Source: a virus. From it: 23,880 bases of DNA. Shown here in pieces: positions 8,125 through 19,898 of this stretch (positions within the stretch are counted from its first letter, which is position 1; every line of letters starts with the position of its first letter). A program made the translations under genes and the position numbers. The notes under the pieces were generated by a model. It saw nothing but the letters and a program-made list of their open reading frames with translations, was not told the origin of the DNA and ran no database searches. Where the stretch lies: positions 1 through 23,880 of the IMG/VR virus record IMGVR_UViG_3300042465_003951. One strand, given 5' to 3'.

Positions 8125-11100
8125 TTAAACAATTGTTTTAATTAGTATAGACGCCAACGCACTAGTGCTACTATAGTTGTCGTGAATATCTACAGTTCTG
8201 CAGGCTACTCGGTAGTTTATTCCTGCTTCTGATAATCGTGGGGTCGTAAAATCTAATAAACTCTGTCGAGTTGCACCAGTTGACGTTACTACTTTTATTT
8301 GATTTGTATTATCTGGAATTAAATCCCAGAAATCTGTTGTACCACTGTCTCTATATACTCTGTACTCATAGTGCTTAAATAAAGCAGTATTAATGGGAGT
8401 ATTAGATATGGCGCTTATATCTAAGAAGTGAGTATTAAGATCAAGGTATATACTATCGACAGTTGAATAAGTTCTAAAAGTACCTACTGTGTGAGTAAAC
8501 TCAGTAGACCAGGGGCCTGTTCTGCCATCTGTTGTTACGTATCTTACTTTTATTTTATATACTTGACCTTTTTCTACTCCAGATATGTAGATGGAACCAG
8601 AGTTATATTTTTCTTTAAAAGTAGTAGCATTTATAAGTGTACTAGTACTCTGCAAGTAATAACTGCATTCAATCATTTCTGTACCTTTAGGTAGTTCTTG
8701 AGGATTAGTATAACTTATTTTTATTCTTTGTTCGTAGATACCAGTAGAAAGTAATTTAGCGGCAGACTCGTCACTTACAATTAAACTAATGTTAGGTACG
8801 TCTGTAGAAGTAAAACTATTACGTAGTTCTGTACCAGGTAAAGTAATTTTTGTTTCAAAAACTGTACTTGCTGTTAGAGTCGTATAATCAGTAAAAATGT
8901 TGTAAGAGCTACTAACTCCATAATCAACTAAAGTGATTGATGCAGATTTATTTGAGCTAGGTTCAATACTTAATACAAGTAAATCTTGTGACTCTTGTCC
9001 TAGTTCCCCAAACATAAACAGATCACTACTATTTATCTGTACAGAAGTTGCTGCTACTAGTATTTTAACACTAGTATAGTAACCTGAAGATAATGCGGTT
9101 TTATCTATTTCTCTCTCAACACTAGCTCCCGCTGACGATCTTACTCTAATAGTATAGCGTTTAGAAATATCAATATATACTTGCTCGTCTAGAATAAATT
9201 CGGTGGCGCTTATGCGATTTTTAATTCTGCCAGTTCCGCCACCCCACATAGGTACGTCATGACTTACTTTTACACGATCTCCACGATTACAAACCAAATA
9301 TTCAATATCTGTATTTAATCTGTATGCTTCTGGACGCAATTTTGCTTGCGCAAAATGCCAACGAGCATGGTCAATTACTAATGATTTTTTTGTAACTCCA
9401 GGTAATTGAATACTTTCAAATAATTCAGCATTACTTTCAGATTTTCCTGCATTATATACAATAACTTCTGCTTGTTGATAATCTTGATCTTCGTCAATAT
9501 AAGTTACTTTTAAACCATCTGGCATTTTAACTAATGCTTTTGATGATTCAAATCCCCAACTATTATGTGGAGTAAAGTGTTGTACAATATTGGGCTTAGG
9601 TTCGTCAATTACTACTGACCACTTACCGTCTACCATAGCAGGGCTTGCTCTACCAGCAGCACAAATATCTCGCAATACTTCTAATATGCTACGTTGTGAA
9701 GCTAATATACTGTTATAAGTAAAACCTTTTGTAGTGCAATAACTATGCCAGTATTGTATTTGTGTTAAATCTACTTTAGTACTAACGTCTACATCTTTTA
9801 CTCTTTGAGGATTAGCGGGATGTTTTAGAATAAATAAAAATAAATCTGCAGGGTTATTAGTTGTGTTCGTTATCCATGCGCTACCGTTCCATGAAGGTGC
9901 CCATGTTTGCACAACGGCATTAATACCTTCAATTTGTCCATTAAGCTGGTCATTTGCTTTAATTTTTAAAGCAGTTCCTGCAAGACTACAATTAACTGGT
10001 TCCTTAATAGGAAACATATTACGTAAAAAAGTAGTTTGTAATAATATTACCTGTGCATAGATCTGAGCTTTAGCATAGCCGTTAGCTGCTTTTGTCCACT
10101 CAGCATCAGCACCAGTTTTTCTGCGAACTCTAACTTGAACTTCGTTATAGGAGTTTAATCCATAATAAGTTTTATTTACTGTAAATGCGTCTTTTTTAAC
10201 TGTACCATCTCCAAGTCCAAAATCTTGCCAAGTTGTCCAAGGCCCGGCCCCGTCTTTTACTTGAATCTCAATAGCTACAAAAACAGATTCTTCTTTTCCA
10301 GATTCTTTGCCCTCTGCAAAAATTCTACGCAAACCTTGTGGAAGATGTAATGAAACAGTAAATTGACTAACTGGCACTACGGCCCCACTAGTATTAGTAG
10401 TTGGCGGACCACTGCTTGCAGTTATAAAGGGACCGTACGTACCTTCTGTTAGTACTGCATTATACTGGCCTGGACAAGTTAAAGTAAGCCCGCTGGCAAC
10501 TACTTTTACGTCTTGACCGTAGATGGCATTAAAATCTAGTATTTGCTGTGCAGTAGGAGCAGTTTTTCTATCTAAAGTTACTGGGGGTACTGGTAGTATA
10601 TAATCTGTTAATGCAACGTTACCAATTTTTAAAGTTGCGGCATCAATGTTAAGGGGGCCGTACCCCCAAAGTAACAACATTGACAGGTAACTTTCAGTGT
10701 CATTTTCATAAGTAAGATAGTTAACGGCGCCAAGTGGTGGAGTATATTTAATTTTACCTAAAACTACTGGGATAGCGTCATATGGATGTATTTGGTTAGC
10801 GCCGCCCGTAACCATGTACTGCTGAATAGTAGATCCAGGACTATTAATATCAGGAGGACGAATAGGTGCAATAGCATTAATTAATGCTCCGCCTGCAATT
10901 GTAAAAGCAATAGTAGTAGCAGCATTAGCTACTAACATAGAAGTAGTTACAGCCGCTCCGCCAGCAGCCGCGGTTGCAGCAGCAGCCGTATACCCCGTCA
11001 CTTGTCCTGCTAAATATGGCGCAACATATGCTACTATTAAAGTAAGTATTAATCTTCCTGTATTGCCTTTTCCAGGTACTGCACGATATTCAACACGATC

Positions 11101-11697
11101 TGTGTCTTTTAAAGCAGTAGTATGCCACTTTGTTGGATCTGCTACAACACCGTTAACCAGAATAGTAATTTTGCTTGCTAGTTCATCAGCAATCTTATAT
11201 TCAAATTTAACCCAGGAGGCTAGCTTATCTAAAGTTGTTCCTGGTAAAATAGGTACGGTAAAACGCTCAGTACGTAGTGGATGTGGCACTACGTTTAAAA
11301 TTGCACTTTTGTTTTCACTGTACTTATAAAATCCTGTAATACGGTTCTTCCAACCCACAGACTCAAAAGATTCTATTGCGCTATCGCGACGATCACGCGC
11401 ATGCAAAAAATGAGTACTGCTAACAGCAATACCCATATGTGATTCTACACCTAAAATATTAAATAGTACAATGCAACCTTCTGTTGGAGTATCTATTTTT
11501 TCCCAGCCTTCTTTGTACTGGGCGAGCAAATCACGCATCTGCTCAGCGTCGTCAGCTTCGTAATTAGTACTAAAATTAGGTAGATCTATATTATATTCTT
11601 GCTTATAAACAAGACGAACTAATCCCCAGCAATCAATGCCGTTTGTATCTCTGCCCTTATCTAGGAAAGGTATCCCTATATACTTATTATTCCACAT
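8125..11697 (-). CDS. Tail tip protein: NlpC/P60 hydrolase, I-like and J-like parts fused
   Basis: This 1,190-residue protein combines what lambda encodes as K, I and J. Residues 1-130 are an NlpC/P60 papain-like peptidase with Cys23 (GIDCWGL), His87 (ESHMGI) and a third polar residue His99 (FLHAR), so it looks catalytically intact and would cut peptidoglycan cross-links during entry. Residues about 134-215 resemble the ubiquitin-like gpI domain ('TTALKDTDRVEYRAVPGKG'), followed by an Ala/Gly-rich hydrophobic stretch (215-280). From about 285 (INAIAPIRPP, then IPVVLGKIKYTPPLGA) to the end it looks like the gpJ hub and FN3-like domains; a C-terminal receptor-binding extension of full gpJ is missing and probably lies in the next gene. 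TAATG overlap with the DUF1833 gene. Confidence 0.87.
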   Translation of the reverse strand: MWNNKYIGIPFLDKGRDTNGIDCWGLVRLVYKQEYNIDLPNFSTNYEADDAEQMRDLLAQYKEGWEKIDTPTEGCIVLFNILGVESHMGIAVSSTHFLHARDRRDSAIESFESVGWKNRITGFYKYSENKSAILNVVPHPLRTERFTVPILPGTTLDKLASWVKFEYKIADELASKITILVNGVVADPTKWHTTALKDTDRVEYRAVPGKGNTGRLILTLIVAYVAPYLAGQVTGYTAAAATAAAGGAAVTTSMLVANAATTIAFTIAGGALINAIAPIRPPDINSPGSTIQQYMVTGGANQIHPYDAIPVVLGKIKYTPPLGAVNYLTYENDTESYLSMLLLWGYGPLNIDAATLKIGNVALTDYILPVPPVTLDRKTAPTAQQILDFNAIYGQDVKVVASGLTLTCPGQYNAVLTEGTYGPFITASSGPPTTNTSGAVVPVSQFTVSLHLPQGLRRIFAEGKESGKEESVFVAIEIQVKDGAGPWTTWQDFGLGDGTVKKDAFTVNKTYYGLNSYNEVQVRVRRKTGADAEWTKAANGYAKAQIYAQVILLQTTFLRNMFPIKEPVNCSLAGTALKIKANDQLNGQIEGINAVVQTWAPSWNGSAWITNTTNNPADLFLFILKHPANPQRVKDVDVSTKVDLTQIQYWHSYCTTKGFTYNSILASQRSILEVLRDICAAGRASPAMVDGKWSVVIDEPKPNIVQHFTPHNSWGFESSKALVKMPDGLKVTYIDEDQDYQQAEVIVYNAGKSESNAELFESIQLPGVTKKSLVIDHARWHFAQAKLRPEAYRLNTDIEYLVCNRGDRVKVSHDVPMWGGGTGRIKNRISATEFILDEQVYIDISKRYTIRVRSSAGASVEREIDKTALSSGYYTSVKILVAATSVQINSSDLFMFGELGQESQDLLVLSIEPSSNKSASITLVDYGVSSSYNIFTDYTTLTASTVFETKITLPGTELRNSFTSTDVPNISLIVSDESAAKLLSTGIYEQRIKISYTNPQELPKGTEMIECSYYLQSTSTLINATTFKEKYNSGSIYISGVEKGQVYKIKVRYVTTDGRTGPWSTEFTHTVGTFRTYSTVDSIYLDLNTHFLDISAISNTPINTALFKHYEYRVYRDSGTTDFWDLIPDNTNQIKVVTSTGATRQSLLDFTTPRLSEAGINYRVACRTVDIHDNYSSTSALASILIKTIV

Positions 11698-12582: not shown

Positions 12583-15500
12583 TTATCTCCTAATTAACTG
12601 AGGCTGAAGTCCGAAAGTTCCGCGTATTGCTTTTTGTGAAGCACTACCATTTCTAGAAATTTCACCTGCAGTCATATCCCCTATAACAACTTCGATTTTA
12701 CGGTTGCCTCGGCTGTCAACAGTTTCTTTAGTTTCTGCTTGTGCCGTAGAATAGTTGTTAACAACTACATCAACATTTCCACCACCACCTGCGCGAACTC
12801 CAAGGTTACCGTTACTATCACGCTTTAGGGGCATGATGGCTTCTGGTCCTGCTTCACCCATTAAACCTGTACCTTGTGCAAACTTAAATAATGTTGGAGA
12901 AGCTACTACAGAGTTAGTAAACATTCCGCCTTTAGCAAAAGTTTGAAGCCCTGTGTCAAATACGTTACCCTTTGCAGAAGGTACATATCCTGCCTGAGTG
13001 CCTGTCATAGAACCTGTATTACCCATGTTTCCAAAAATACTACCAATGAAATTCATAAATCCTGGTTTAAATGCGGCTGACATCATTATAGCTTGTTGCT
13101 GCATTTCGTAACGAATTAAACCTTCAATAAAACTGTCTATCATACCTTTAAAGTTAAGCTTACCAGTTTTAGTAAATTCGATAACAGCATCTGCCATACC
13201 CTCAAAACTGTTTTTAAGTATGTCTCCGTATTTAAGTTGTCTGTCAGTTAAATAGTCATCTAAACTTTTGGTTTTTTGTTTTGCTTCGTATACTTTATTT
13301 ATTCCTTCAACTTCTGCTAAATAAGCATAAGTAGCTGCCTCTCTTTTAGCATTAATAGAGTCAATATTACCAGAATTTTTAGGATCAAGTGCTTGTTTTG
13401 CTAAGTCTAATTGCGTTGCAAGTAAGCTATTTTGTAACTGCTGTAACTTAATGTCACGCTCTTTCATTGTTTGCATTCTATTAATTGTTAAAAGCTGTTC
13501 GCGATAGTTATCTGTAGTAATTACCCCTAAGTCAAGTTGATTTTGCAGAACTTCTTTTTGTATATCAACTAAAGTATTTTCGGTTTCATTTCGTATGCGT
13601 GTTAAGTTTACTTGGCTCTCTAAACTTTGAATAATTTGATCCATTGTTTGTAAACTGACGGCTAATGTATTTTCACGAGTACGTTCTGCAGTTGCCGTTT
13701 TAGTAGTAGTTACAAATAGATTGTCTGCAGTTTGCAGCTGTCTTCTAGTATTCTCCTCAGTTCTTAGAGCTATATCGTAAATTTCCCACCATTTTTCTTG
13801 TTCTGCTTTTTTCTCAACAACAAGTGTAACAGCTAATTCTTTATAACTGTCTAAAGTATTGAGGCCGCGCTTAAGAGAATCTTCTTGTTGAATATATGCC
13901 TCTATTATAGCCTGTTGATCTGCTAAACTACTGTTTCTAAAAACCTGGCTTTTCATTTCTTCTTCTTTAGTAGCAGTTACGTTCTTTAGTATATCTTCAA
14001 CAGTTTTCCTAGTCTTATCATAAGTAAGTTGAACACCAGTTACTTCAGCAGCAAGAATATTTGATTTTTTCTGATCTTGTAATTGAGCAACTTGTGCCAT
14101 AGTACCTTGTTGTTCTTGCATAGCTTTTAAAGATTCAGGTGATTTTTGTATATCTCCTGCTTTAATACTTTTGCTAATATTAGTACTGCTAAGTAGTTTC
14201 ATTCTAGAATCTATTTCAGATATTCTTGTATCTGATTTTACTGATTCAGCTGCTCGAGCACTTTTATCGTCTTTTAAAAGAGCTAAAGCTGCATCTCTTC
14301 TAGTTTCTATAAATTGCTTTTCACTTTGTAAACGGCTTAATTCCATTTCCTTAATTAAACGTTGAGTTTCAGTTATTTGACTAATCTGTAAGTCAATTTT
14401 TTGATTTTCAAGTCGAGCCCCAAGCTTTGCTGTTTCTGCTGTTTGAGGCAATTTATCTAGCAAGTTCTTTTGTGAACTCAGAACTGTTTCCGCCATTTTA
14501 CGAGTAAAACTGCCTTCAATAAGCTCAAAGCCTTTTTCAATTGAAGCTTTTGCTGCCGCTTCAAAATTCTTGCTTAAAGCTAGCATTTCTTGTCTGGTTG
14601 CGTCTAATTTGCTTTTTGCTTCTGCTGAAGCTCCTTTTGCTTTACTAAGTGCTGGGCTATCGACATTAGAGGGAGCTTCTAATCTTCTAGAATTAGGATT
14701 AAACTCTAGTCCGTAGCCGGCAAGATTACGTTGCCCAGCTCTTAGTTTTTCAATTTTAGCTTCTGATTCCGTAAGTTGTGATTCATAACTTTTTGCAGTA
14801 TTTATTAAAGCAATATATGCATCACGATTTTGCATAATAATTGCTTGTGATTCTGGGGCAAGCAATTTAATTTTACTAATATCAGTTAGTAAATCTCTTA
14901 ATGTAGCTAAATTTGCTATAGGGTCTTTTAATGCTTCTGCAAAATTAAATCCTTGTGTGGCTAAATCTTTTCCAAAAACTGAGAGTGCGTCTTTTTGTAT
15001 TAAAGTATTAGACAAGTCTGTGTAGCTTTTTTGTAACCCTACAAAACCATCCTTAACTCCTGATAATACTGCACTAGTTTTTTGCCCTGCTTTAGAAGCA
15101 TATTCAAATACATCTGCTATTTCTGCACCAACTGCAGTCAATCTACTAGTACTCATGCTACTTAAAGACTGTTTAATAGTATCTTCAGTAAGCTCACTAA
15201 CATTTAATATATCTTTTAATCTTTCTCTTGTGTCTTCTTGCATAGAAGGATCTAAAATACCTTTTAATCCTTTTGATAGTTGCTTACCTAGACTTTTTGC
15301 AAAATCATCTTGCATACTTTGTCCAAAAAAGCCTTTAATGCTATCTACAGTATTGTCCCAACGATTAGCTTCTTTATTGGCTTGTTTAAAACTTTCAGCG
15401 GTTTCTTTAAGGTTTTCAGATAAGTTCTGAAAAGAAGTAGCCATAGCTATAACCGAAGCTGTAGACAGTGAGTTTTTATATTTATCATGACTAGCAGTTA

Positions 15501-17253
15501 AAGCCCTAGTATTGTCATCACCTAGTTCTAAATTTTTATTAAATTTTTGTACTTCTTTGTCGTTATTGCCAAAAACATAGTTTAATGCTTGAAACGCTCC
15601 TACTAATACGCCTATTGCCATACCAATATTGCCCATTGTACCTATAAAACCCATAAGTCTTGTAGTTGCAGCAGTTACAGTTGCAGTTACTCCTGTAAAT
15701 AAAGTTCTAACTGTACCTAATCTTTCAGTTTTAAGACTATCTACCATTTCACCAAAGGCAGCTCTAAACCCTACCAAGCTAGCAGTGTCTGCGGCGTTAC
15801 TAATAATTGAGCTTGAGGCTGAACGTTTGCGTTGCTCTTCTGCACCTATTTGTAATCTTCCTAGTGCTGATGTTCTTCCTACTGGTTCATTTTCTTCTTT
15901 TCTTAATTTTGCTGCTGTAACAATATAATCATCTTCTGCTTTTTTAGCTTTACGTATAGCGTCAGCTAACTGATCGTAAATGTACTTATTTTTTGTTAAG
16001 CCTTTACCAGCAGCTTCTATTTGCTGAATTTGTTTTTCTGTGATGGACTGAATACCGCCTGTAGGCGTAAGAATACTAGCAATATCTTTGCGAATACGTC
16101 CACCACTAAGTGTTTTTAATTTTGCTTCTAATTTGTCAATAACTTCTGCTTTAGCATTAGCGGCAGCATCTTGCTTTGCAAGTATATCAGCTCTACGCTT
16201 TGATAACATACTTTCTGCAGTACTAATTTTGTCATCACTTACTTGTTTGCTGAACTCTGCAGTTTTTCTTAGTTCAGTTCTATAATTAACAATACTAGGG
16301 ATTGCTTGCTTGATAATCATTGAGCCAAGCGCAGCTATACCCGCAGTTAAAGCTACTGGGCTAGCACTTAATAAGTCTACTAAAGGTACGAAAGCTTTAT
16401 TTAAAACTTCTAAGATAGTTTGTGCAATGTTTTTAAGCGAAGCTAAAAGTTTGTCATAAGGGTTGGTAGGGATATCAATTTCGTTAAATTTATCAATACC
16501 TTCTTTTAAAACCGCGTTAGCAAAAGCTTGGCGCTTTTCAAAATCTGTTAAGCTATCTACACTTTTACCTATGCTACGTGCGTAATCTTCAGACGATTTA
16601 CCTACTTTTGTAAATAAGCCTAATTCGTCTAATAGTTCTGGTTCTAGTTTAGTAATACCACGAGTTAAACGACTAACAGCGTCGCTCATATTAACACCCA
16701 GTGCTTGCGAGGCCTTTTTAGCTACATCACCAAGTTGTAAAAATTGTTTCTGAGTCATACCGCTACTAATAGCTTTAGCAGTAGCTTCCATTGACTCACG
16801 TAAGCTGATAGCCCCTCCACTAGCTTCTGTAAACTGTTTAGCTAACGCTCCCATTGCAACACCACTAGCGGCACCTAACTGATCTAAACCTTTAACCATG
16901 TTAGTGGTATCCATAGCATTGCTTAAGGCACTAAATGCTGCACTTACTGCGAATACGTTAGCAGCATAGGTAGCATATAAGCGCACTAATCCACCAAGAC
17001 CTTGTGCTTGGTTTGCAAAATCTCGGCCGCTTGCTCCAGTAGATCCCATAGATCCACGAGCACGTCCGTATTCTATATTTTCACCTGCGCCAAGGCTGGC
17101 TGCAGCTGCTTTACTGCCGGATTTAGTACCGGTGGCTAAGTTCTGCGATTTTTGTAATTCTTTATTTAAATTTTTAACTTCATCAGTACGATTCTTTATA
17201 CTATTCGACTGATCCTGTAAACTTAAATTAATATTAACTTGATTTGATGCCAT
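12583..17253 (-). CDS. Tail tape measure protein
   Basis: This is the longest gene of the window (1,556 residues); it sets tail length and lies inside the tube. It shows long helical/coiled-coil stretches; hydrophobic segments at about 86-110, 285-315 and 533-562, typical of tape measures that insert into the host membrane during DNA ejection; and the characteristic C-terminal motif 'GLMGEAGPEAIMPLKR' (starting near 1463) shared with lambda gpH-like proteins, followed by a Gly-rich linker and a short beta region. At roughly 1.5 angstroms per residue the tail would be about 230 nm (inference). GAGG precedes the ATG. The gene has its own consensus promoter and is followed after two bases by the distal tail gene, whose Shine-Dalgarno lies inside the tape measure's last codons. 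Confidence 0.95.
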   Translation of the reverse strand: MASNQVNINLSLQDQSNSIKNRTDEVKNLNKELQKSQNLATGTKSGSKAAAASLGAGENIEYGRARGSMGSTGASGRDFANQAQGLGGLVRLYATYAANVFAVSAAFSALSNAMDTTNMVKGLDQLGAASGVAMGALAKQFTEASGGAISLRESMEATAKAISSGMTQKQFLQLGDVAKKASQALGVNMSDAVSRLTRGITKLEPELLDELGLFTKVGKSSEDYARSIGKSVDSLTDFEKRQAFANAVLKEGIDKFNEIDIPTNPYDKLLASLKNIAQTILEVLNKAFVPLVDLLSASPVALTAGIAALGSMIIKQAIPSIVNYRTELRKTAEFSKQVSDDKISTAESMLSKRRADILAKQDAAANAKAEVIDKLEAKLKTLSGGRIRKDIASILTPTGGIQSITEKQIQQIEAAGKGLTKNKYIYDQLADAIRKAKKAEDDYIVTAAKLRKEENEPVGRTSALGRLQIGAEEQRKRSASSSIISNAADTASLVGFRAAFGEMVDSLKTERLGTVRTLFTGVTATVTAATTRLMGFIGTMGNIGMAIGVLVGAFQALNYVFGNNDKEVQKFNKNLELGDDNTRALTASHDKYKNSLSTASVIAMATSFQNLSENLKETAESFKQANKEANRWDNTVDSIKGFFGQSMQDDFAKSLGKQLSKGLKGILDPSMQEDTRERLKDILNVSELTEDTIKQSLSSMSTSRLTAVGAEIADVFEYASKAGQKTSAVLSGVKDGFVGLQKSYTDLSNTLIQKDALSVFGKDLATQGFNFAEALKDPIANLATLRDLLTDISKIKLLAPESQAIIMQNRDAYIALINTAKSYESQLTESEAKIEKLRAGQRNLAGYGLEFNPNSRRLEAPSNVDSPALSKAKGASAEAKSKLDATRQEMLALSKNFEAAAKASIEKGFELIEGSFTRKMAETVLSSQKNLLDKLPQTAETAKLGARLENQKIDLQISQITETQRLIKEMELSRLQSEKQFIETRRDAALALLKDDKSARAAESVKSDTRISEIDSRMKLLSSTNISKSIKAGDIQKSPESLKAMQEQQGTMAQVAQLQDQKKSNILAAEVTGVQLTYDKTRKTVEDILKNVTATKEEEMKSQVFRNSSLADQQAIIEAYIQQEDSLKRGLNTLDSYKELAVTLVVEKKAEQEKWWEIYDIALRTEENTRRQLQTADNLFVTTTKTATAERTRENTLAVSLQTMDQIIQSLESQVNLTRIRNETENTLVDIQKEVLQNQLDLGVITTDNYREQLLTINRMQTMKERDIKLQQLQNSLLATQLDLAKQALDPKNSGNIDSINAKREAATYAYLAEVEGINKVYEAKQKTKSLDDYLTDRQLKYGDILKNSFEGMADAVIEFTKTGKLNFKGMIDSFIEGLIRYEMQQQAIMMSAAFKPGFMNFIGSIFGNMGNTGSMTGTQAGYVPSAKGNVFDTGLQTFAKGGMFTNSVVASPTLFKFAQGTGLMGEAGPEAIMPLKRDSNGNLGVRAGGGGNVDVVVNNYSTAQAETKETVDSRGNRKIEVVIGDMTAGEISRNGSASQKAIRGTFGLQPQLIRR

Positions 17254-17308: not shown

Positions 17309-17337
17309 ATTATAACATGCAACCACACTTTTGTCAA
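17309..17337 (-). promoter_or_regulatory. Perfect sigma70-consensus promoter for the tape measure operon
   Basis: On the minus strand TTGACA (17332-17337), a 17-base spacer and TATAAT (17309-17314) match the consensus at all 12 positions and ideal spacing. TG one base before TATAAT gives an extended -10 as well. Transcription would start near 17302 and reach the tape measure ATG after about 50 bases. The strong terminator at 17357-17391 lies directly upstream, so this block is restarted independently. An imperfect dyad (TTGAC...AGTG with CACT...GTCAA) flanks the -10 and could bind a regulator. Confidence 0.9.
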
Positions 17338-17356
17338 ACCAAAAAATTTTTAACGT

Positions 17357-17391
17357 AAAAAAGCCTGCCAACTTTTAGCTGGCAGGCTTTT
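17357..17391 (-). terminator. Strong intrinsic terminator after the chaperone pair
   Basis: A perfect 12-bp stem (AAAAGCCTGCCA / TGGCAGGCTTTT) with a 9-nt loop and a six-base T run on the minus strand. The stop codon of the T frame (17375-17377) falls within the loop, so the last codons of the fusion form the upstream arm. It separates the chaperone transcript from the tape measure promoter just downstream. Confidence 0.92.
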
Positions 17392-17761
17392 CCATCTTTT
17401 TCTTATTATTGATTTCGTCTGAACGTACAGCATCAATCATACGTACTAGCATGATTATAAACTTTTGCTCAGAAGGCTCAATCTCTGTTGCTTCTAAAAC
17501 ATCTTTTATTCCTATCAAAGACTTGCCTAAGTAGTTACCATTCATAGTGTCCCACTCATCTCGTAGCATTCGATAAGCATTAAATGCTTGTTGTACTTCT
17601 ATTGGAAAATCTTCAAATTCCACAGGAATCTCAGAATCTAAAGGTTCTGAGCCTAGCATTTCGCACATTTCAAAATACGACTCTTTGGACATACCAAGGC
17701 CCATATTTTGAATGTAGCTGACCAACTGCGCGTTTACTTGCTGGAGTTGGTCGTCGAAAAG
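17375..17761 (-). CDS. Tail assembly chaperone, T domain made by -1 frameshift
   Basis: This frame (128 residues from the slip point) is read by ribosomes that shift -1 at GGGAAAC, giving a 259-residue G-T-like fusion: 131 residues of the upstream frame, then LFDDQLQQVNAQLVSYIQN onward. In lambda, gpGT recruits tube subunits to the tape measure. The T part is helical and acidic (EFEDFPIEVQQAFNAYRMLRDEW) and ends in KKKMEKPAS. Independent initiation is unlikely: the first candidate start is a TTG at 17725 without a Shine-Dalgarno, and the frame is open upstream from there through the slippery site to a TGA at 17783-17785. The stop codon lies in the loop of the following terminator. Confidence 0.82.
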   Translation of the reverse strand, partial: LFDDQLQQVNAQLVSYIQNMGLGMSKESYFEMCEMLGSEPLDSEIPVEFEDFPIEVQQAFNAYRMLRDEWDTMNGNYLGKSLIGIKDVLEATEIEPSEQKFIIMLVRMIDAVRSDEINNKKKMEKPAS

Positions 17762-17767
17762 TTTCCC
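17720..17767 (-). promoter_or_regulatory. -1 programmed ribosomal frameshift signal
   Basis: The heptamer G_GGA_AAC (17761-17767, minus strand) fits X_XXY_YYZ in the phase of the upstream gene and differs from lambda's GGGAAAG only in its last base. After an 8-nt spacer comes a perfect 8-bp hairpin, GACCAACT (17745-17752) with AGTTGGTC (17720-17727), with a 17-nt loop that contains the zero-frame stop. The only stretch open in both frames is about 17737-17782, and this is the one canonical slippery site in it. Confidence 0.88.
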
Positions 17768-18153
17768 AAGTCTGAAACTTGTTCACTAATAAAACCGTCA
17801 AAATTACTAGAGTTCTTCATTAAGTACAAGGCATTTTCAGCAGTATATTCTAATTCGTCGTCTAGGTTTTGGCCTTTTAAATCAACAGGAGCTAATTGCT
17901 CAAGATAACTTAATTTAAAGCCTTTCCACCCTTTGACAGCATTTTCAACATATAATTGCAAGAACAAGTCTTCATTAAATTCTTCTGCTGCTTGGCGGTT
18001 CTTAAAGCTAGTTTTAGTAGACTTCTTACGAATACTTAAAAGTGTTTCGCGAGATAAAAATGCTAAGTCAACAACAAAACCAGGCATACCAGGGTATTCT
18101 ACCTGTACTGATTTGGAGGGAACTAGCAGTGTTTTTAAAGAGAGAGTAGTCAT
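17734..18153 (-). CDS. Tail assembly chaperone, gpG-like (zero-frame product)
   Basis: This is a 139-residue protein made by normal termination. By position (after the tube, before the tape measure) and by the frameshift design it corresponds to lambda gpG, which coats the tape measure during tail assembly and is absent from the finished tail. The N-terminus is beta-rich (LKTLLVPSKSVQVEYPGMPGF); the rest is helical and acidic. The last eight residues after the slippery site are a Ser/Thr tail. The start ATG has no visible Shine-Dalgarno: the 20 bases upstream are A/T only apart from one C, immediately after a terminator. An in-frame TAA five codons upstream rules out a longer form. Ribosomes that slip at 17761-17767 make the fusion described for the next gene. 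Confidence 0.82.
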   Translation of the reverse strand: MTTLSLKTLLVPSKSVQVEYPGMPGFVVDLAFLSRETLLSIRKKSTKTSFKNRQAAEEFNEDLFLQLYVENAVKGWKGFKLSYLEQLAPVDLKGQNLDDELEYTAENALYLMKNSSNFDGFISEQVSDLGNFSTTNSSK

Positions 18154-18170
18154 TTTATAATAATAAGTTT

Positions 18171-18202
18171 AAAAAGAGAGACTGGAGATCAGCCCAGTCT
18201 CT
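18171..18202 (-). terminator. Intrinsic terminator after the tail tube gene
   Basis: A perfect 9-bp stem (AGAGACTGG / CCAGTCTCT) with an 8-nt loop is followed on the minus strand by CTTTTT. It lies between the tube stop codon and the chaperone start and would limit readthrough from the abundant tube transcript into the chaperone and tape measure genes. Confidence 0.85.
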
Positions 18203-18221: not shown

Positions 18222-19898
18222 TTAAACTGCTGCGCGGTAAACGATACTTGCTTCGTTAGACTGTGTAATGTCGTAACCAGTACCTGTAAAGCCTTGAGCT
18301 GTAAAGTTAATTGTTGTAGAAATAACTTGCTCTGTGTTAATTGTAGGAATCTGCAACATAGCCGCAGGTAACTTGATTTCAACACCAGTAGGATTTGTAC
18401 TAGGTCCGCCCATTTGTACATTAATTGTAAACTTAGGGTCTACTGTAGTTGCTGAATTAGCTATCAAGTCAGATAACAGTCCGCCACTTTCAAGACTACC
18501 TGTTTTTAAGTATGCATTAATAGTACCAGTAATAGCGCGTGTACCAGTAAAGTACGTGATTGGTAAATTAACTGTACCTAAGTTAGCAGGTGTCAGATAT
18601 GTTAAGTTATTAGCAAAAGTTATATTTCCGCCAGTTAAAGCAATTGTATAAACATTACCAACATTAGCTGCAATTACAGCAGTAGCTGCAGCTCCTGAAC
18701 CACCGCCACCAGAAATAGTAATTGTGGGAGCTGTTGTATAACCATATCCTGCGTTAGTAATAGTGATACCAGTAATAGTAGAGCCAGTAATAGTTACGGC
18801 ACCAAGAACAGCTCCAGTACCTGCACCTAAAGAGCCAAGAGTAGCTGTAGGAGCTGTAGTATATCCAGTACCAGCTGTTGTAATAGCAATACCAGTTATT
18901 GCACCGCCGCTAACTGTTACAGTACCTACTGCAGTTACACCGCCGGCAACTGTAGGAGGAGAGAATGTTACGGTTGGAGTTGTGTATCCAGTTCCACCAG
19001 TAGTAACTGCTACAGCACTAACACCTCCACCAGATAATACGGCCGTACCAGTGGTTGTTACACCGCTAGCAGGTGCAGCACTAAAAGTTACGGTAGGAAC
19101 AGACGTATATCCAGAACCAGCAGTACCAACTGTAACGCTAGTCACAGCACCACCAGCAGCAGCAACAAAGTCATTGATACCATCATTAACAACTAAAGTA
19201 CTTAACTTGTTAGTAATATAACGAGCCGTAGTATTTTTAGCTAATGCTTGGTCAGGGGCCGTGTTATCAAAATCTGTTCCTGAGAAAACAACTGGACTAG
19301 CAGTATTAGCTTGTGCATCTGATAACACACGAATTGCGGAACCTTTACCAGCCCAGGCCACTGCCGCAATAGCGTCAATACCAAAGTCAATAGTTGCAGA
19401 ATCTAGTGCGCAGTTATCGATAACGTAGCCGGCATTGTCAAACAATATAATTAAGCCAAAAGGCAGTAATTGGTGCTTGTTAGAATTAGTAAAATCAACA
19501 GTAGAAGAACTTGCTCCTGCTGTCCAAGCAGCACCTGCGGCGCCAATGTTAGCTGCACCACCGAAAGCATTCCATAAATAGGCTTCTTCAGCAGTAATCA
19601 AACTACCATTATTATGTGGTCGAATATAGGTAGAGAAAGTAAAATCTACTGGCTCTAGTGCAGTGTTAAAACTGCGTTGACCACGTACAGGAGCTGCCCC
19701 TGCTTCATTTAGTGTAACTGTATCTACAGTAGTATTTTGTGAAAAGCTCATGCCTTCCAATACTTGAAGTTCAAAACAGTTTGTTGTAGACATGCCGCTT
19801 GCTGCATCTTTTAATGCACCAATTTTTACACGGCCAAAACTGTCAATGTTAGTAGTAAAGAAGACTCTACTATTACGAATTAAATTAACTGCTGCCAT
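18222..19898 (-). CDS. Major tail tube protein with inserted GxGYT repeats
   Basis: This 558-residue protein forms the tail tube. Residues 1-240 (SRVFFTTNIDSFGRVKIG, SFSQNTTVDTVTLNEAG, RSFNTALEPVDFTFSTYIRP) and 415-558 (LTGGNITFANNLTYLTP, TGTRAITGTINAYLKTG, GVEIKLPAAMLQIP) look like the two halves of a gpV/T5 pb6-type tube fold. Between them, residues about 251-410 are a Gly/Thr/Val-rich insert with four GxGYT motifs whose tyrosines fall at 264, 305, 346 and 387, an exact 41-residue period. The insert probably projects as a surface decoration. Shine-Dalgarno AAAGGA precedes the ATG. An intrinsic terminator follows 20 bases after the stop. The tube role is supported by position before the chaperones and tape measure. 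Confidence 0.85.
   Translation of the reverse strand: MAAVNLIRNSRVFFTTNIDSFGRVKIGALKDAASGMSTTNCFELQVLEGMSFSQNTTVDTVTLNEAGAAPVRGQRSFNTALEPVDFTFSTYIRPHNNGSLITAEEAYLWNAFGGAANIGAAGAAWTAGASSSTVDFTNSNKHQLLPFGLIILFDNAGYVIDNCALDSATIDFGIDAIAAVAWAGKGSAIRVLSDAQANTASPVVFSGTDFDNTAPDQALAKNTTARYITNKLSTLVVNDGINDFVAAAGGAVTSVTVGTAGSGYTSVPTVTFSAAPASGVTTTGTAVLSGGGVSAVAVTTGGTGYTTPTVTFSPPTVAGGVTAVGTVTVSGGAITGIAITTAGTGYTTAPTATLGSLGAGTGAVLGAVTITGSTITGITITNAGYGYTTAPTITISGGGGSGAAATAVIAANVGNVYTIALTGGNITFANNLTYLTPANLGTVNLPITYFTGTRAITGTINAYLKTGSLESGGLLSDLIANSATTVDPKFTINVQMGGPSTNPTGVEIKLPAAMLQIPTINTEQVISTTINFTAQGFTGTGYDITQSNEASIVYRAAV
18669..19148 (-). repeat. Four 41-residue GxGYT repeats inside the tube gene
   Basis: Tube-protein residues about 251-410 contain four tandem units, each with a G-x-G-Y-T-x-x-P-T motif followed by a Gly-rich turn and short Val/Thr strands. 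The tyrosine spacing is 41, 41 and 41 residues. The units have diverged in sequence but not in length, pointing to old tandem duplication under a structural constraint. One unit has lost a residue before Pro-Thr (GYTTPT) and regains it elsewhere. Confidence 0.85.

Follow-up and report, generated by a model that had tools for sequence, protein, structure and literature searches.

Candidate frameshift signals of opposite direction at one codon of the tail assembly chaperone genes of T5-like phages

Two tail assembly chaperone genes, G and T, overlap out of frame in the genome of a freshwater, T5-like phage. How do ribosomes reach the second of them, and do the relatives of this phage, T5 included, arrive there by the same route? 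The window (the whole stretch of DNA analysed, 23,880 nucleotides, positions 1 to 23,880 of IMG/VR record IMGVR_UViG_3300042465_003951) covers the head-to-tail part of the genome. A preliminary description, made from its letters alone, had proposed that T is entered as in lambda G/GT, by a -1 frameshift. For the window alone such a reading is ordinary; the comparison across the family matters more. We conclude, with considerable confidence, that a -1 slip at G_GGA_AAC in the window makes both G and a G-T fusion, and that the homologous recoding element pivots on a phenylalanine codon across T5-like phages, working in the +1 direction in the T5-type members.

The gene pair and its overlap in the window

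The genes of the window follow one another in the order capsid, head completion, T5_p143-type tail completion, tail terminator, major tail protein, G/T, tape measure and a large fused tip protein. The capsid, tail completion, chaperone and tape measure genes (T5_p143 domain included) are orthologous to those of the T5-like (Demerecviridae) tail module, and T5-like phages gave the best capsid matches (about 32%). A search of a phage collection with gene G matched 900 records; among the matches listed, nearly all were T5-like and all fell below 60% identity. The sole match to the clade on a genome contig was on a contig binned to a gammaproteobacterial MAG. The features of the locus are as follows, in the order of reading:

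18222..19898, minus strand: major tail protein gene, upstream neighbour of G/T (phrog_3575, E 2.6e-55)
17734..18153, minus strand: gene G, zero frame, tail assembly chaperone of 139 aa (open reading frame; phrog_313, E 1.6e-14)
17783..17785, minus strand: TGA, last stop of the -1 frame before the overlap (recomputed)
17761..17767, minus strand: slippery heptamer G_GGA_AAC, in phase (recomputed; invariant at codon level in 69/69 distinct relatives)
17375..17761, minus strand: predicted T extension after a -1 slip, first T codon CTT at 17761-17759, stop TAA at 17377-17375 (phrog_3914, E 1.5e-12)
17755..17760, minus strand: TTTTCG directly after the heptamer (site alignment of the three classes)
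17745..17752, minus strand: 5' stem arm GACCAACT, 8 nt after the heptamer (covariation, 54 sequences)
17728..17744, minus strand: 17-nt loop holding the zero-frame stop (recomputed, and folding)
17734..17736, minus strand: TAA, zero-frame stop of G, within the loop (recomputed)
17720..17727, minus strand: 3' stem arm AGTTGGTC (covariation, 54 sequences)
17356..17394, minus strand: terminator-like hairpin over the T stop codon (-27 kcal/mol, z -5.9)
12583..17253, minus strand: tape measure protein gene, downstream neighbour of G/T (phrog_3779, phrog_1716; PF09718)

Both halves of the pair matched tail assembly chaperone families, G phrog_313 and T phrog_3914, with the E values given above. Gene G was 27.6% identical to T5.143 of T5 (E 2e-15), and T was homologous by tblastn to the T gene of T5-like phages; in T5, G aligns with the first half of phrog_313, and T with its second half as well as with phrog_3914. 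An AlphaFold model of G built from 62 relatives reached a pLDDT of 84, as against 37 for a single-sequence prediction. When this model was searched with Foldseek against BFVD, the best matches were tape measure chaperones of T5-like phages, followed more weakly by those of Loki, CcrColossus and Mu (FS-gp41), placing G in the chaperone fold class. Neither a fold search of the PDB with the G model nor a PDB profile search returned a meaningful match.

The -1 frame is open from 17782, just after the TGA at 17785-17783, to the TAA at 17377-17375, and overlaps G in the -1 phase. GGGAAAC at 17767-17761 starts with the third base of a codon (X_XXY_YYZ), and no other heptamer of the overlap is in phase; gene G has two in-phase TTTAAAA, both upstream of the overlap. 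In the other large genes of the window, in-phase XXXYYYZ heptamers were found at 33 of 6378 codons, a background rate at which about 0.06 would be expected in the 12-codon overlap, and in-phase GGGAAAC was found zero times. The arms GACCAACT and AGTTGGTC form a perfect stem of 8 bp, with a spacer of 8 nt and a loop of 17 nt; the folding energy of the stem region is -13.9 kcal/mol (z = -3.2). The predicted G-T fusion is 259 aa long, with the junction SDLGN-LFDD. Recomputation reproduced exactly the dual-open overlap, coordinates, heptamer, hairpin, spacing, loop and fusion length of the preliminary description, along with its claim that the heptamer is the sole one in phase.

Might T be expressed from a start of its own, the heptamer and stem being coincidental? 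Several ATGs are present in T downstream of the overlap, but the best one supported by a Shine-Dalgarno sequence (17545) lies deep within the gene. The second frame had been said to have no credible start. That was right in so far as candidate T-frame starts near the overlap show weak Shine-Dalgarno pairing; however, gene G itself starts (18153) without a Shine-Dalgarno sequence (duplex energy +1.7), as it does in much of the clade, so weak starts may be tolerated and the argument from a missing start is weak in this operon. What makes an independent start scarcely credible is the conservation of the site, frozen at codon level and followed by a stem that covaries across the clade.

In the clade of the window, GGGAAAC stood at the same place in all of the first 80 relatives and in 79 distinct sequences of the class. 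The codons GGA, AAC and the next TTT were each represented by a single codon in the 69 distinct relatives; at 38 amino-acid-conserved positions with a synonymous choice, just one codon outside the site was equally frozen, and 34 varied. Among 54 sequences of equal geometry, 94.7% of stem cells were paired, and 17 cells carried double changes versus 6.4 in shuffles and far fewer in slid controls: a conserved, covarying structure a few nucleotides after the heptamer. A small subclade with GGGAAACTTCTAA lacks the stem in the window's form, and RNAalifold did not recover the stem from the whole alignment of the class, giving instead a weak 4-pair alternative; the stem is therefore common, not universal. 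With this reservation, the alignment of relatives that had been suggested as a check bore out the conservation of heptamer and hairpin. It also overturned the idea that the final C of the heptamer and the geometry of the loop are particular to this phage, as KL1, Colossus, HCTV-1 and about 80 relatives share G_GGA_AAC, and both heptamer and loop are common to most relatives.

The pair sits between the major tail protein and tape measure genes, and T is open in -1 across the end of G at an in-phase slippery heptamer, as expected of the lambda type. Codon freezing (69/69), compensatory changes in the stem, and the chaperone families and fold make a lambda G/GT-like -1 frameshift a well-supported prediction from sequence. 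A minority of the ribosomes on gene G would slip back one base at G_GGA_AAC, with the stem-loop 8 nt beyond it as an aid, and would read on into T. The products would be two tail assembly chaperones, G of 139 aa and G-T of 259 aa, and G-T would bridge the tape measure and the tube protein as in lambda, where it is established that the two chaperones load tube subunits onto the tape measure protein (PMC5009743). Frames, invariant sites, covariation and fold class are observed directly; slippage and its efficiency are what we infer.

The surroundings of the pair hold further features. A terminator is annotated at the same place as the hairpin after T in the records of T5, KEY and PR1. Directly before the tape measure gene, and after that hairpin, a sigma-70 consensus promoter is present at 17309-17337 (12/12; TTGACA, 17 nt, TATAAT). 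A second terminator-like hairpin, with a T run, was located at 18177-18202, just upstream of gene G; it recurs across much of the clade, in which a TATAAT-like stretch is often found right before the ATG of gene G. Together with the missing Shine-Dalgarno sequence, the upstream hairpin may mean that expression of G/T is separate or leaderless. T5 (L081) and Vibrio relatives (L086, L089, L090) have one more gene, of about 250 aa, after T and before the tape measure gene; in the T5 record it is described as similar to RB49ORF239C. The tail tip protein of the window (8125-11697, 1190 aa) combines NlpC/P60, ThiS-like and Phage-tail_3 domains in one chain, whereas the equivalent domains in lambda are in the separate proteins K, I and J. 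The major tail protein (18222-19898) carries a long insert of glycine-rich repeats of the GSGYTSVPTVTF type, with matching repeats in other virion proteins and tail fibres.

Three classes of site at one phenylalanine codon

We classified 295 loci: 90 with +1 UUU_CGN, 80 with -1 G_GGA_AAC, 124 with -1 A_AAU_UUU, and 1 degenerate. The sites of all classes fall at the same conserved phenylalanine codon, usually preceded by asparagine, and in all three classes both halves of the pair belong to the same families. The zero frame typically ends in DL[E/D]NFR in the +1 class, DLENFT in the A_AAU_UUU class and DLGNFS in the G_GGA_AAC class, and the T frame often goes on with an aromatic-x-x-Q motif. 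Many aquatic relatives have T in -1 and A_AAU_UUU at the phenylalanine codon; in most cases a stem that shows compensatory changes comes after it. The codons AAT TTT were found in 61 of 61 non-redundant rows of this class; among 58 other conserved columns, none was restricted to a single codon.

The T5-type orthologues are built otherwise. In 12 records of T5-like phages, T was open in +1 but closed in -1, and an in-phase TTT CGN stood close to the stop of G or immediately before it (GAT ACT TTT CGT AGC in T5; TCC TTT CGT TAA in My1). An in-phase TTT_CGN was present in every +1 locus, first in 83 of 83 and then in 90 of 90 in a larger set. The phenylalanine of the site was TTT in 41 of 41 non-redundant rows, versus 72-81% TTT at other conserved phenylalanine columns, and the arginine was always CGN and never AGA or AGG, which make up about one third of the arginine codons elsewhere in G.

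Could the +1 class be a misreading, the family using ordinary lambda-type -1 slippage only, and T of T5 starting independently or by translational coupling? T of T5 and of most of its relatives is annotated as a separate reading frame with its own start, and the genome paper of Sugarland, a T5-like Klebsiella phage, describes the chaperone, like that of T5, as without a predicted frameshift signal (PMC6256483). Such an explanation has to contend, however, with the frozen, in-phase TTT_CGN within the overlap at all 90 loci, with a T frame that in every +1 case stays open back beyond its annotated start and across the overlap, and with the orthologous T of the -1 lineages, reached by a frameshift at the same codon. 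The Shivani record, moreover, is annotated with a joined chaperone CDS, which implies that its annotators suspected a frameshift. We consider a misreading improbable.

The direction of the shift is a separate matter, as +1 and -2 end in the same frame and T5-type phages might shift by -2, as Mu does. The joined CDS of Shivani (832 nt; BFVD product of 277 aa) fits a -2 join, a +1 join giving 276 aa. Yet the codon before UUU varies freely (AAC, AAT, CGA, ACG, ACC, CAC and others) and UUU_C is invariant, which favors +1. A +1 shift also requires just that tRNA-Phe re-pair from UUU to UUC, the mechanism established for influenza A PA-X, in which the P-site tRNA makes this move during a +1 slip on UCC_UUU_CGU (PMC3498833). 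A -2 shift is thus possible but unlikely, and +1 is the direction that we would infer for the T5 type.

In T5-type phages, then, tRNA-Phe would slip +1 on UUU_CGN without a downstream structure; aquatic lineages would slip -1 on A_AAU_UUU, and the clade of the window -1 on G_GGA_AAC, each usually with a stem. Downstream stems mark the -1 classes and not the +1 class. Mean downstream folding z was -3.2 for A_AAU_UUU, -2.2 for G_GGA_AAC and -0.5 for the +1 class, with control windows inside T at -0.5 to 0.1 (Mann-Whitney 6e-12, relatedness of loci uncorrected). The same difference separated two neighbours, L298 (+1), without a stem (z -0.4), and L223 (-1), with one (z -4.1). No stem was evident in a few -1 lineages (L266, L437-L449, L454-L457 and L460).

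The heptamer of the window is followed directly by TTTTCG, which is likely to be a remnant of, or to share ancestry with, the UUU_CGN site of the T5 type, judging from the alignment of sites. As a working +1 site in the window it was rejected: it is out of phase, the zero frame reading TTT TCG, and T is in -1.

A few loci departed from the three patterns or combined them. In L223 and L315, AAATTTTTCG looks like a +1 site plus one extra T, and AAATTTTCGT in L236 and L268 presents both signals at once. L371, the degenerate locus, reads GAG AAT TTT (G_AAU_UUU); every other -1 orthologue has a full XXXYYYZ heptamer. In L317 (1896-3395) about 500 codons of the T frame pass without a stop, against 140 in the closely related L320, which may reflect either a sequence error or a fusion of T to the gene that follows. 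L454-L457 and L460 have A_AAU_UUU with a zero-frame stop within one or two codons (TTT CAA TAG) and no stem. On the tree, L454 branches as the sister of the GGGAAAC clade, and its type of site may show the state before the GGGAAAC heptamer arose.

Probable changes of direction within the family

For the trees, G and T were combined and the site was left out. The G_GGA_AAC class formed one clade, supported in the larger tree. A single change of direction held on the first tree (94 rows) and was rejected once L298 was included: slip direction changed twice on the tree, and a single clade of all +1 rows was rejected (AU p = 0.006), in a family of low identity with some long branches. Direction thus appears to have changed at least twice within one gene family, as far as such trees can tell. 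The root is not fixed, so that the trees give the older switch no polarity.

The sharpest case of a switch is that of L298 and L301 (+1), which stand beside L437-L449 and L223 (-1) at supports of 100/94 and 100/99. Their sites read TTT CGT AAG TTC ACAG in L298/L301, AAT TTT CAG AAG TTC AG in L437-L449 and AAT TTT TCG in L223; L298/L301 differ from L437-L449 by a net insertion of 2 nt plus a change of CAG to CGT. Sequencing error was dismissed as a cause, as the class of site is the same in four contigs of different metagenomes, one of which has a variant sequence. Nor is L298 likely to have arisen by recombination between a +1 G and a -1 T: both halves of L298 were closest by identity, in the set compared, to L223, and simple recombination therefore does not explain this locus.

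The reconstructed course of events is that small indels near the pivot would flip the frame of T, after which the local signal would be re-tuned, the order of these mutations being our reading of an observed tree. In its full form the account has one homologous site alternate between -1 (on G_GGA_AAC or A_AAU_UUU, mostly with a stem) and +1 (on UUU_CGN, no stem) around a fixed phenylalanine via small indels, at least twice, T5 then making G-T by a PA-X-type +1 slip; we regard it as probable. What is selected seems to be the presence of a minority G-T fusion and not the route that the ribosome takes to it. The loci offer a natural series for a change of direction, in which gene and codon stay constant, an indel occurs, and a stem is subsequently gained or lost.

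Comparison with known systems

Lambda-type G/GT, GGGAAAC sites, the -2 shift of Mu and a probable +1 shift in HSTV-2 are already known. The open-access literature that was searched yielded no report of a +1 frameshift in the chaperones of T5, none of a bacterial use of the PA-X motif, and no case in which one orthologous pair switches direction at a single codon; relative to that literature, the UUU_CGN signal in T5-type chaperones and the switch of direction in one orthologous pair are new. T5, a model phage reported without a frameshift signal, is thereby given a concrete and testable one, and the PA-X motif UUU_CGN is placed in bacterial viruses, open to E. coli genetics. Annotation pipelines looking solely for XXXYYYZ miss the +1 half of the family.

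Like the window, lambda G/GT has two chaperones from one start, a -1 slip near the end of G at an XXXYYYZ heptamer, and the order tube protein, G/T, tape measure; this likeness is one of architecture and proposed mechanism. The heptamer of lambda is G_GGA_AAG, whereas that of the window ends in C; 8 nt beyond the latter there is a conserved stem-loop, while certain tailed phages cited alongside lambda are described as shifting with no evident stimulatory signals (PMC5009743). The GGGAAAC chaperone site itself was predicted in the genome papers of Burkholderia phage KL1 (PMC3483164) and Caulobacter phage Colossus, or CcrColossus (PMC3556154), and is described in haloarchaeal HCTV-1 (PMC5009743); all three share heptamer and gene pair with the window but belong to different phage families.

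The tape measure chaperones T5.143 and T5.142 of T5 (Demerecviridae) are direct orthologues of both halves, in the same gene order and with a terminator after T, but T is in +1, entered, on our reading, at UUU_CGU and without a stem. In motif and direction the T5-type sites resemble those of influenza A PA-X (UCC_UUU_CGU) and of amalgaviruses (UUU_CG), and the site of Pectobacterium phage My1, UCC_UUU_CGU, is identical to that of PA-X; the eukaryotic systems differ in their ribosomes and in their unrelated genes, and CGU, rare among the codons of human and chicken, is common in E. coli. That chaperone frameshifts differ in direction between phage families is evident from gp41 of Mu (-2) and from haloarchaeal HSTV-2 (very likely +1; PMC5009743), both unrelated to the phage of the window.
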